Assembly: GCA_026991755.1 (NCBI GenBank)
Contig: JALXAX010000173.1
Span: 1-41,574 of the forward strand
Direction of reading: 5' to 3'
Source: Thiotrichaceae bacterium
GTDB taxonomy: Bacteria > Pseudomonadota > Gammaproteobacteria > Thiotrichales > Thiotrichaceae
DNA length: 41,574 nt
Shown: one piece after another, positions 15,919 through 36,924 of the stretch
Layout: each line of letters opens with the position of its first letter
Numbering within the stretch: the first letter of the stretch is position 1
The notes under the pieces: model-generated
What the model was told of the DNA's origin: nothing
The model's database searches: none
Seen by the model: the letters and a program-made list of their open reading frames with translations, nothing else
Translations under genes and position numbers: made by a program

Positions 15919-16158
15919 AACCTAAAATCCTCAGTTAGACAGCCTATAGTGTGATTCTCTTCGACTGAATGGCGTAGTAAAAAAAGGAATTAATGGTTGA
16001 TCCTTAATGAGTTTTTTTACATAGCCAGTCAGTCGAAGAGGGTTGCTCTATAGGCTGTAGCGCCTTCACTCTATAAGTGAAGATAGATAAAGCTGCTTAC
16101 TTTAATGCTATCAACAGTTTATTTAATGCTGGAAGCGGTTAACTGAGGAATTTAGGTT
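15919..16158. repeat. Palindromic repeat R1, copy C (240 bp, supplies end of dapC)
   Basis: A complete copy with termini AACCTAAAATCCTCAGTTA and TTAACTGAGGAATTTAGGTT between the convergent cold-shock gene and dapC. The right 20 bases are read as the last codons of dapC (EPKFLS then TAA). The hairpin stem reads CTCTTCGACTGA with TCAGTCGAAGAG, whereas copy D reads CTCTTCGGCTGA with TCAGCCGAAGAG: a paired change that keeps the stem. Confidence 0.92.
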
Positions 16159-17807: not shown

Positions 17808-17943
17808 GATTTGCTAATTCTTTAATGCGTTGAGTAGAATGATAGTCTATAAGAAATTATTTTAAGCGTCATCATTAAGGCAGCCCGCTTGTCTTATTAA
17901 CAGGACGTGCTGTATAAATACTCAACATTAAAAGTGTTAGTTA

Positions 17944-18102
17944 GAGACCTTTGCACGAAAGGATGGCGAGAGAAAAATGAGCGTAATTTTCTCTATTTTT
18001 GCTAAAAAAGAGGGTAATAGCCGAGCTATTGGCCGAATTTTTAGCAGAAATAGAGGAAATTCAAGCCATTTTTATCCGTCATATCTTTCGTGCAAAGGTC
18101 TC
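17944..18102. mobile_element. 159-bp MITE, copy 2
   Basis: Perfect 18-bp terminal inverted repeats GAGACCTTTGCACGAAAG / CTTTCGTGCAAAGGTCTC, flanked by the 5-bp duplication AGTTA (17939-17943 and 18103-18107). Same length as copies 1 and 3. It sits between the divergent DUF4190 and RnfD-like genes. Confidence 0.93.
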
Positions 18103-18142
18103 AGTTATGAACTAATTTTTAAAATATCACCCTAAAGTGATA

Positions 18143-18171
18143 CCTTGCGCGAAAGATATGAGGGATAAAAA
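18143..18171 (-). mobile_element. Second half-copy of the 159-bp MITE
   Basis: CCTTGCGCGAAAGATATGAG followed by GGATAAAAA matches the reverse complement of the MITE right end with few mismatches, 40 bases after copy 2. The left part is absent. Confidence 0.5.
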
Positions 18172-18266
18172 GTACAGTGAATCACATTTATTAACTGAGG
18201 CTAGCTATTAATTCAAGACACGTAACAGGCATCACTGCCCTTAACGTTGACCCACGCTACTATCAA

Positions 18267-19034
18267 TTGATCGTACAAGCGTCCCTAATCTTATGGGGTG
18301 CGTTTTACCTAGAATCAAAGCTACCTCTTTCACATATTGTGGCAGGCTTTTCTGTCAGCTTGATGACGCAAGTAGCTTTTACTCGCTACTTGAGCTTACC
18401 TACAAACCTACTCAGCACCCTCAATTCAACTTTATCCATTCTGATTTTGTTACATGCTAATAGCTGGGTGTGGATTATGCTGGCCTGTTTTGTGGCTATT
18501 AGTAGCAAATTTATTATCCGCTATAACAATAAACACATCTTTAACCCATCCAACCTAGGGATTGTAGCTGTATTGTTATTAACTTCATCTGCCTGGGTAG
18601 CTCCAGGGCAATGGGGACAAGCGGCTTGGTTTATTTTACTAATGGCAGGTCTGGCGCTTATTTTTATAATGGGTTTTTCTCGGATGCTGACGTCCATCAG
18701 CTTTTTAGTCACTTTTGCTGGCATCACGTTACTACGTGCATTTTGGTTAGGTGACCCGCTACCTGTCCCCCTACACCAGTTGCAAAACGGTGCATTATTA
18801 ATCTTTACCTTTTTTATGTTATCCGATCCGATGACAACACCGAGCAACAACATATCACGACTTATTTTTGGCATTTGGCTTGCTATTACCAGTGCCATCT
18901 TACTCTTTGGTTTTTATATCCCTAATGCTTTCCTCTACGCACTAGCACTATCAATGCCATTGGTATTATTATTGAATCATTACTTTACGGGCCGTCATTA
19001 TCACTGGCCAAGGGAATATCACTATGAGAAATAA
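18267..19034 (+). CDS. Stand-alone RnfD/NqrB-type membrane protein
   Basis: A 255-residue multi-helix protein of the NqrB/RnfD/RnfE family; RnfD and NqrB carry covalent FMN in ion-pumping redox complexes. Family-like parts are HIVAGFSVSLMTQVAF, KFIIRYNNKHIFNPSNLGIV and the conserved MLSDPMTTPSN block. The position given uses TTG, but the frame stays open upstream to about 18195 and reads SRHVTGITALNVDPRYYQ, which fits the family's N terminus, so the true start is probably further upstream. No ATG, GTG or TTG exists there; ATT at 18207 is possible. No other rnf genes are here. It overlaps the next gene by 11 bases. Confidence 0.75.
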   Translation: MIVQASLILWGAFYLESKLPLSHIVAGFSVSLMTQVAFTRYLSLPTNLLSTLNSTLSILILLHANSWVWIMLACFVAISSKFIIRYNNKHIFNPSNLGIVAVLLLTSSAWVAPGQWGQAAWFILLMAGLALIFIMGFSRMLTSISFLVTFAGITLLRAFWLGDPLPVPLHQLQNGALLIFTFFMLSDPMTTPSNNISRLIFGIWLAITSAILLFGFYIPNAFLYALALSMPLVLLLNHYFTGRHYHWPREYHYEK

Positions 19035-20469
19035 AAACAAATCAGCTATACCCAGAACAGCCTCGGCACTTACATCAACCACAATCATGAGCCGCTTAAT
19101 GATAATATTAGCCACGCTGGCTTTATCTCCTCAGCTTTCTGCTTTTTGTGGTTTCTATGTTGCAAAAGCTGATACCGGTTTATTCAACAAATCATCACAA
19201 GTGGTTTATGTCCGCGACGGCAACAGAAACGTTGTCACTATGGCGAGTGATTACCAAGGGAAAGCCAAGGATTTCGCGATGGTTATCCCCGTACCCACGG
19301 TTTTAAAGCGCAAACAAATTCATGTAACCAATAACGCTATCATCAAACATATTGACGATTTTTCAGCGCCTCGGTTAGTCGAGTATCACGATGATGATCC
19401 CTGCCAACCTCAGATTATGTATGAAATGGCAATGGCCGCACCCGCTCCACGTAGCGCAATGATGAGAAAGAAAGCGAAAGACCTTGGCGTTACTATTGAA
19501 GCACAATACACCATTGAGGAATACGACATCTTGCTACTTTCTGCGAAGGAAAGCACAGGCCTAATGACATGGTTAGAAGGGGAAGGCTATACACTACCTA
19601 AAGGCGCTGAAAGTGTTGTCGGGAGTTACCTTAAGCAAGGCATGAAATTTTTTGTCGCTAAGGTCAACCTGAAAGAGTTTGATAAATCGGGTTATACCAA
19701 GCTACGCCCTATTCAGATTGCCTATAACCATAGCAAATTTATGCTCCCTATTAGACTGGGTACAGTCAACGCACAAGGCAAGCAAGAGCTATTTGTTTAT
19801 GCTATTACCAAAAAAGGTCGGGTTGAGACTACTAACTACCGTACTGTTAAGTTGCCTACAGGCTTTGATATCCCTGGTTATATCAAAGAGAAAAAGATGT
19901 TCGGTAAGTTCTATAAAGATATGTTTTCTACCCAAGTAGAAAAGCATAACAATCGGGCTGTATTTTTAGAATACGCCTGGAATATGCGCTCATGTGATCC
20001 TTGCTCAGCAGCTCCATTATCGAATAAAGAATTAAAGGAACTGGGTGTGTTTTGGATTGACCCTCCACAACAAACCAACCCATCAACAAAACCCAATAAG
20101 CCTAACATGTCAAGCAGGCCTTTTATGCCACGTAGAATGCCGCAACAAAATGTTTTCATCAGTCGTTTACACTTACGTTACGACCGTAAAAGTTTTCCTG
20201 AAGACTTAATGTTTCAAGTAACAGGTGATCGCTCTAATTTTCAAGGACGCTATGTCATACGCCACCCCTGGAAAGGCAAAGCACAGTGTGAAGCAGGTGA
20301 TAATTACTTTAATAATGAGCTACCCAAGCGTCTTAATAAAACTGCCAAAACATTGGCTAAATTAACAAATTGGGATATCAATGAAATCCGTAAAAATCAA
20401 CAAAAAGTACCTAAACATACCAATTACAATAGCAATGATAGTGATTGGATTGATAGTCTTTGGAATTGA
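19024..20469 (+). CDS. DUF2330 domain protein, exported
   Basis: A 481-residue protein with an extended signal peptide (core MIILATLALSPQLSAF) and a DUF2330-like region beginning CGFYVAKADTGLFNKSSQ, with FAMVIPVPTVLKRKQI. Cysteines occur at the mature N terminus, in DDDPCQPQIM, in MRSCDPCSAAP and in GKAQCEAGD, suggesting disulfides. The start overlaps the RnfD-like gene by 11 bases and is preceded by AAGGGAATATCACT, so the two are probably translated together. The function of DUF2330 is unknown; this pairing hints at an envelope redox or cofactor-linked role, which is inference. An internal ATG at 19087 is an alternative start. Confidence 0.8.
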   Translation: MRNKNKSAIPRTASALTSTTIMSRLMIILATLALSPQLSAFCGFYVAKADTGLFNKSSQVVYVRDGNRNVVTMASDYQGKAKDFAMVIPVPTVLKRKQIHVTNNAIIKHIDDFSAPRLVEYHDDDPCQPQIMYEMAMAAPAPRSAMMRKKAKDLGVTIEAQYTIEEYDILLLSAKESTGLMTWLEGEGYTLPKGAESVVGSYLKQGMKFFVAKVNLKEFDKSGYTKLRPIQIAYNHSKFMLPIRLGTVNAQGKQELFVYAITKKGRVETTNYRTVKLPTGFDIPGYIKEKKMFGKFYKDMFSTQVEKHNNRAVFLEYAWNMRSCDPCSAAPLSNKELKELGVFWIDPPQQTNPSTKPNKPNMSSRPFMPRRMPQQNVFISRLHLRYDRKSFPEDLMFQVTGDRSNFQGRYVIRHPWKGKAQCEAGDNYFNNELPKRLNKTAKTLAKLTNWDINEIRKNQQKVPKHTNYNSNDSDWIDSLWN

Positions 20470-20507: not shown

Positions 20508-20746
20508 AACCTAAAATCCTCAGTTAGACAGCCTATAGAGTGATTCTCTTCGGCTGAATGGCGTAGTAAAAAAAGGAATTAATGGTTGATCCTTAATGAG
20601 TTTTTTTACATAGTCAGTCAGCCGAAGAGGGTTGCTCTATAGGCTGTAGCGCCTCACTCTATAAATGAAGATAGATAAAGTTTCTTACTTTAATGCTATC
20701 AACAATTTATTTAATGCTGGAAGCGGTTAACTGAGGAATTTAGGTT
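20508..20746. repeat. Palindromic repeat R1, copy D (239 bp, convergent intergenic)
   Basis: A complete copy between the convergent DUF2330 gene and the gene at 20746. The nested hairpin spans 20528-20647: outer stem ACAGCCTATAGAG with CTCTATAGGCTGT, middle stem CTCTTCGGCTGA (20546-20557) with TCAGCCGAAGAG (20618-20629), inner stem GTAAAAAAA (20566-20574) with TTTTTTTAC (20601-20609). The A7/T7 runs could serve as U-tracts in both directions. The last base forms part of the neighbouring gene's stop codon. Confidence 0.92.
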
Positions 20747-36765: not shown

Positions 36766-36924
36766 GAGACCTTTGCATGAAAGGATGGCGAGAGAAAAAT
36801 GAGCGTAATTTTCTCTATTTTTGCTAAAAAAGAGGGTAATAGCCGAGCTATTGGCCGAATTTTTAGCAGAAATTGAGGAGATTCAAGCCATTTTTATCCG
36901 TCATATCTTTCGTGCAAAGGTCTC
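36766..36924. mobile_element. 159-bp MITE, copy 3, between sctI and sctJ
   Basis: Starts GAGACCTTTGCATGAAAG, ends CTTTCGTGCAAAGGTCTC, with the 5-bp target duplication CTTAT (36761-36765 and 36925-36929). It lies within the T3SS gene row, 23 bases after the end of sctI. Confidence 0.93.

Follow-up and report, generated by a model that had tools for sequence, protein, structure and literature searches.

What is a relative of RnfD doing next to a gene of the DUF2330 family, away from the complex to which RnfD belongs? The window, by which we mean the whole 41,574-nucleotide stretch from a gammaproteobacterium of the Thiotrichaceae, carries two such genes on the forward strand (Table 1), and a sequence-only reading of this DNA had proposed that a flavin-type membrane subunit and a cysteine-bearing exported partner form an undescribed envelope redox module. 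The overlap of 11 bases that it reported agrees with the stop codon of the first gene and the ATG of the second. The first gene had been read from a TTG at 18267, which is probably not its true start. An open frame reaches back to 18195 and codes, across the TTG, for DPRYYQL, found near the N-terminus of most relatives (alignment A1); this makes the TTG a poor start. There is no in-frame ATG or GTG between 18195 and 18267, and a GAGG lies 6 bases 5' of an ATT at 18207, so that, judging from the frame and the GAGG, the gene probably starts at this ATT, though the start is uncertain. Alignment A1 of the RnfD-like proteins was made without L011 and L013, and alignment A2 of the DUF2330 proteins without L009, L011, and L017; unknown residues (X) had been stripped from the sequences beforehand.

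Table 1. Features of the gene pair, in window coordinates
Feature	Position	Strand	Remarks
Short RnfD-like integral membrane protein	18207..19034	+	275 aa from ATT 18207 (probable start); 255 aa from TTG 18267
HIFN	18534..18545	+	H110 (Asn in canonical RnfD) and N113 (matches NqrB Asn203); by NP-motif matching
Shortened linker (SSAWVAPGQWGQ region)	18582..18623	+	Replaces the five-helix linker with the FMN threonine
FMLSD	18813..18827	+	F203 and D207 (match NqrB Phe342 and Asp346; putative riboflavin/ion site)
DUF2330 protein, 481 aa	19024..20469	+	PF10092, 256.8 bits; alignment A2 of 13
DUF2330 C42	19147..19149	+	Just after the presumed signal cleavage site
DUF2330 C127	19402..19404	+	
DUF2330 C324-D-P-C327	19993..20004	+	CxxC
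DUF2330 C422	20287..20289	+	

Copies of two palindromic repeats flank the pair. The first of these, of about 160 bases with arms of 78 nt, lies in the window at 17938-18110 and 36766-36924 with a remnant at 18135-18171. Of 262 candidates in the genome, 40 places were scored, with an identity of at least 95%. This repeat has the look of an amplified MITE, and one copy ends about 100 bases upstream of the pair. The second, of about 135 bases (20520-20655, 15931-16065, and 53-160; 40 places scored, of 111 candidates), has a copy directly downstream of the pair, starting about 50 bases away.

The same reading had stated that no other rnf or nqr genes are present. This is correct for the window, where none of the eight neighboring proteins tried against Pfam gave another Rnf/Nqr match, but does not extend to the genome, and the absence of a normal Rnf system that it implied has to be given up. 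The window's genome (G000, 3.66 Mb) carries rnfA, B, C, D, G, and E together with nth in one row on contig C61, where RnfD is confirmed by TIGR01946 (397 bits) and the other names were given from gene order and sequence by eye. A search for ApbE, which had been suggested, found one gene on contig C119 amid unrelated genes. Both ApbE and Rnf are present in this genome, apart from the pair, and the only DUF2330 gene is the window's own. An rnf row on another contig could mean that the window's protein is a spare RnfD, serving the cell's own Rnf complex as an additional, peripheral subunit. We judge this very unlikely: the branch that splits the clade of the pair from RnfD/NqrB has full support, and the protein lacks the linker of RnfD with which, according to PMC9588780, RnfG associates.

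Is the pairing itself conserved? We searched the 63 genomes of the window's order with the RnfD-like protein and with PF10092. A close RnfD-like protein occurs in 16 of the 63 (17 genes, E < 1e-75; the next matches start at 1e-6). DUF2330 is present in all 16 as well: in 15 it adjoins the RnfD-like gene, and in one the two are unlinked. Counted by genes, DUF2330 adjoins 16 of the 17, and for the 17th (G037) both genes are kept on different contigs. DUF2330 rises above the cut-off in two of the 47 genomes that have no close RnfD-like gene (G003 and G007), which gives a co-occurrence of 16/16 versus 2/47 (Fisher p 4e-13, uncorrected for kinship); the pairing is far above chance. Seen from the other side, 3 of the 20 DUF2330 genes above the cut-off in the order are unlinked (those of G003, G007, and G037), and another (G057, contig C72) sits at a locus end, its linkage unjudged.

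The pair also recurs in other phyla. A named scan for RnfD-like relatives, from which the best 80 of 137 were kept, gave 78 loci that overlap with the order set. DUF2330 lies immediately downstream in 26 of the 27 best of these loci (L033-L059, E <= 2e-32) and was not found in the examined stretch, short for some, of the other 51 (E 1e-25 or weaker). The linked loci include MAGs named Alphaproteobacteria, Bacteroidia, Deltaproteobacteria, and Bacteriovoracales as well as the cyanobacterium Pegethrix; a further one, L042, is named Fermentibacteria and nests among Thiothrix rows in the tree, and may be misbinned. A reverse search with DUF2330 alone was performed in the order of G438, which we take to be alphaproteobacterial since the match in L052's genome, one named Alphaproteobacteria, agrees in coordinates and E-value with that in G555 of this order. 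It gave 55 matches in 54 of 249 genomes and 12 of 48 genera, and at the loci of all 30 best matches an RnfD-like gene stands directly upstream on the same strand, as one also stands upstream at G438's own locus (L135, from the other 25 matches) and at L136, both found through DUF2330. DUF2330 also occurs in two of 398 evenly drawn Pseudomonadota, one being the window's own genome, and in two of 247 genomes from the phylum of L058's genome, one being L058's and the other holding a weak match (L190, 36.6 bits) whose locus has no RnfD-like gene. Among ten genomes with sister RnfD-like loci, three have DUF2330, G472 and G474 with one match each and the planctomycete G469, that of L062, with 13, several of them in a row on contig C60. 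A plasmid of Deinococcus sp. QL22 carries a broken pair-type DUF2330 annotated in two pieces (L193:6088-7191), with no RnfD-like gene within 6 kb. The gene-neighborhood survey that the sequence-only reading called for has therefore found a conserved pairing in both directions, and a functional pairing of the two genes is near certain.

In a tree of 94 rows, built by a quick method and with several long branches, the 30 pair-type RnfD-like rows (29 linked, and the unlinked L044) form one group with an SH-aLRT support of 94, and 13 canonical RnfD/NqrB rows stand apart on a branch with full support. Of these 13, the RnfD of the window's genome alone was checked by profile, the others being taken as canonical by length, clustering, and motif. 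L023 and L030, which are short, and L133, the genome's own RnfD again, were left out of this tree and of the residue counts. Tree distances of the two genes correlate across 28 pairs (r 0.86, 0/5000 permutations; tested without the partial L037 and the unlinked L044) and across 13 rows chosen for distance (r 0.58, 0/5000 permutations). Both this correlation and the co-occurrence are partly due to shared species history. One RnfD-like clade is tied to one DUF2330 subfamily.

That the first gene encodes an RnfD-like membrane protein, as had been read, is borne out by profile and by predicted structure. It scores above the gathering cut-off of the RnfD/NqrB superfamily profile (PF03116 NQR2_RnfD_RnfE, 41.3 versus 27.7 bits), with its C-terminal half only, and far below the curated cut-off of RnfD proper (TIGR01946, 37.3 versus 207 bits). 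Its predicted model (pLDDT 80.7) matches the RnfD structure 8rbq_D with Z 23.8 over 252 residues (rmsd 4.2). Across RnfD and NqrB structures (8rbq_D, 8ahx_D, 7zc6_D, and 8a1x_B), Z lies at 21.5-23.8 for RnfD and 21.2-21.9 for NqrB, followed by urea and ammonium channels at 9-11; the model has the fold of RnfD/NqrB. It ends after the membrane domain, with no C-terminal NAD-binding domain in its 275 residues. It differs from RnfD/NqrB in that no other Rnf/Nqr gene lies beside it, that an Asn has become His at position 110, and that it lacks the linker with the FMN threonine. Counted from N113 to the alignment column of window residue 144, the 60 DUF2330-associated proteins have 30-36 residues and the 13 canonical rows 74-105. 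The motif [ST].A[TS], as VSGATPL or ITLATPL, is found in all 13 canonical rows, whereas [ST][GSM]A[TS] occurs in none of the 30 pair RnfD-like rows and [ST]GA[ST]P in none of the 60 DUF2330-associated proteins; nor does any of 41 aligned DUF2330 sequences hold [ST]GA[ST]. Within the order, the genome's own RnfD (L133:6955-8019) reads DAMTMATPL and six relatives read DGVSGAT. Covalent flavinylation of the RnfD-like protein, for which the sequence-only reading had proposed a motif check, was rejected on these grounds, the linker being missing in 60 of 60 and the motif from both proteins. Since the threonine-carrying linker is missing, the genome's ApbE is left without a known target in the RnfD-like protein.

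A non-covalent flavin is another matter. The riboflavin site of V. cholerae NqrB comprises Gly198, Asn200, Asn203, Ala205, Thr162, Phe342, and Asp346, according to PMC10643135, and we transferred this numbering to the window by matching the shared NP and DP motifs. Both H110 and N113 are present in all 60 DUF2330-associated proteins, as is D207, with F203 in 59; the scan patterns used, [RK]H[IVL]FNPSN[ILF] and FFMLSDP[MKI], bias these counts in L033-L059, as they do the residue counts in the sister loci L060-L110, and the 30 alphaproteobacterial rows among the 60, having been found through DUF2330, are free of this bias. The pair protein thus has in common with RnfD/NqrB the Asn of the NP motif and the Asp of the DP motif of the putative riboflavin/ion site. 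The position of NqrB Asn200 is His110 in 60 of 60 proteins, where all 13 canonical rows have Asn; that of Gly198 varies (A1), and that of Thr162 has no safe alignment. As far as alignment can tell, a putative non-covalent riboflavin site is partly kept, and the loss of all cofactor-binding residues, which would have spoken against the sequence-only reading, is not seen.

The same evidence can be read in terms of a channel or transporter, in which a small solute or cation would cross through the RnfD-like protein, with DUF2330 as its periplasmic subunit for binding or gating and no part for electrons. The fold does match urea and ammonium channels, the FMN linker is gone, and, according to PMC9588780, in Rnf part of that linker occludes an extracellular half-channel and the Asp to which D207 corresponds is proposed as a Na+ site. 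The match to RnfD/NqrB is far better, however, and the flavin-site residues N113 and D207 are invariant, though D207 could serve either role; we consider a channel unlikely.

What, then, is the partner? The DUF2330 protein clears the PF10092 cut-off of 24.7 by a wide margin, and its N-terminus resembles a signal peptide that, judged by eye, ends in LSA before FCGFYV. We compared a pair-type set of 31 sequences (28 linked and 3 unlinked) with 11 other DUF2330 sequences, ten of them aligned, which come in ten cases from one planctomycete genome, include at least three partial sequences, and were read as full frames. The first cysteine, C42, is general (30 of 31 pair-type, 10 of 10 other sequences). 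C127 and C422 are each found in 31 of 31 pair-type sequences and 1 of 10 others, and C324 and C327 in 31 of 31, with a CxxC in 0 of the 11 others, so that the pair type shares a strong Pfam match with DUF2330 at large and adds to it the CxxC, C127, and C422. The motifs CD.C and AFCG also occur in all 30 alphaproteobacterial partners. The exported, cysteine-bearing partner of the sequence-only reading is in this respect well founded, even if the cysteines may form only structural disulfides, which would count against a redox role. The structure model of this protein is unusable (pLDDT 43.9); a Foldseek search with it gave nothing below E 0.26 and allows no inference on the fold, and no solved relative was found by profile.

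Sister clades of the RnfD-like protein go with other proteins. Among the 51 more distant scan loci, 21 have an UnbV/ASPIC FG-GAP protein beside the RnfD-like one or fused to it, where the label of fusion, here and in the tree, denotes ORF length and three loci (L071, L097, and L101) were scored as having none despite an UnbV gene elsewhere in each. In three of the 51, from Campylobacterota, the next protein is weakly copper-amine-oxidase-like (against a cut-off of 27 bits, the scores are 22.3, 27.1, and 31.4). The loci themselves supplied the proteins from which the UnbV model (five proteins) and the copper-oxidase model were made. Pfam's UnbV_ASPIC is found in six nearby proteins tried (L061, L062, L067, L077, L082, and L101, those of L067 and L101 one gene away). 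In three loci the RnfD-like domain is joined to FG-GAP/UnbV_ASPIC in one protein (L060:5974-8754, L089:1703-4516, and L106:5-3907), the PF03116 part being at the cut-off in L089 and just under it in L106; the proteins of L060 and L089 belong to candidate-phyla bacteria. Two other long ORFs tried, L070 and L093, gave no second Pfam domain. Genome G472 has two RnfD-like genes, one (L077) between UnbV and a polyketide-synthase-like gene and one (L136) beside DUF2330. The RnfD-like proteins beside UnbV resemble the pair protein in being short, in their H..NP and DP motifs (partly selected by the scan), and in having one partner, sometimes fused; they differ in partner family and in clade. They presumably resemble the "UnbU" of enediyne clusters, and our literature searches found no paper on an enediyne UnbU/UnbV link.

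Partnering of RnfD-like proteins with other proteins is therefore a wider theme. Such variety could suit an assembly or maturation factor, that is, a membrane protein that helps to export, fold, oxidize, or load a cofactor into its partner, only DUF2330 having an end function, and the pair-type DUF2330 genes of G003 and G007, in genomes with no close RnfD-like gene, would fit as well. The direct RnfD-like/UnbV fusions fit a permanent complex better, and an assembly role seems improbable to us. A broader idea is that the short RnfD-like proteins that lack the FMN linker serve generally as plug-in electron carriers of the membrane, their flavin-binding domain being joined, beside or fused, to unrelated extracytosolic proteins (DUF2330, UnbV/ASPIC FG-GAP, or copper-amine-oxidase-like). 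They would then form an unrecognized class of one-subunit quinone-to-periplasm redox systems, with our pair as one clade. We offer this as a speculation that we ourselves rather doubt.

The explanation that we prefer for the pair is a two-protein redox unit of the inner membrane and periplasm that uses a non-covalent flavin, a tentative reading to which we would give somewhat less than an even chance. One envelope unit would consist of an inner-membrane protein with the RnfD fold and its dedicated exported partner. The membrane protein would hold a single non-covalent flavin towards the cytoplasmic face and carry electrons between the quinone pool of the membrane and its partner in the periplasm. 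The partner might dock where RnfG would, with the CxxC cysteines or a bound metal as the site that accepts or donates electrons. In its use of quinone and riboflavin the membrane protein would act as NqrB does, while belonging to neither an Rnf nor an Nqr complex. Linkage in both directions, the single clade, the distance correlation, the RnfD fold, the kept residues, and the invariant cysteines support this reading. It is weakened by the altered riboflavin site (Asn to His, and a variable Gly198 position), by a fold held in common, more distantly, with urea and ammonium channels, and by the lack of a cytosolic electron donor in a two-gene unit, as well as by the unlinked DUF2330 genes in the order and the Deinococcus plasmid copy that has no RnfD-like neighbor.

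The closest parallel in the literature is found in the Nqr/Rnf-like two-subunit systems. As described in one article (PMC8238504) and a 2024 preprint (PMC10979944), these have an RnfD/NqrB-like unit outside a full complex, in which the flavinylation site is not conserved and a non-covalent flavin is proposed, together with an extracytosolic partner. A lone RnfD-like unit, the lost flavinylation site, a proposed non-covalent flavin, and an extracytosolic partner are thus common to both. In contrast to the pair, which has no cytosolic domain and DUF2330 as its partner, they carry an NAD-binding domain at the C-terminus, and their partner is flavinylated and NqrC/RnfG-like. Our literature searches found no paper that names DUF2330 or PF10092. 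Of the proposed undescribed envelope redox module, then, the conserved pair stands and we found no description of it in print, while the redox chemistry is inferred. What we have is an apparently undescribed, conserved envelope unit of two genes, with a reduced RnfD fold as its basis.

A DUF2330 subfamily tied to a lone protein of the RnfD fold gives a concrete handle on DUF2330, and both the invariant cysteines and the flavin-site residues are open to point mutation. If the redox reading is true, the core of the Rnf/Nqr pump would have found a further use, as a membrane unit that stands alone and takes different partners.
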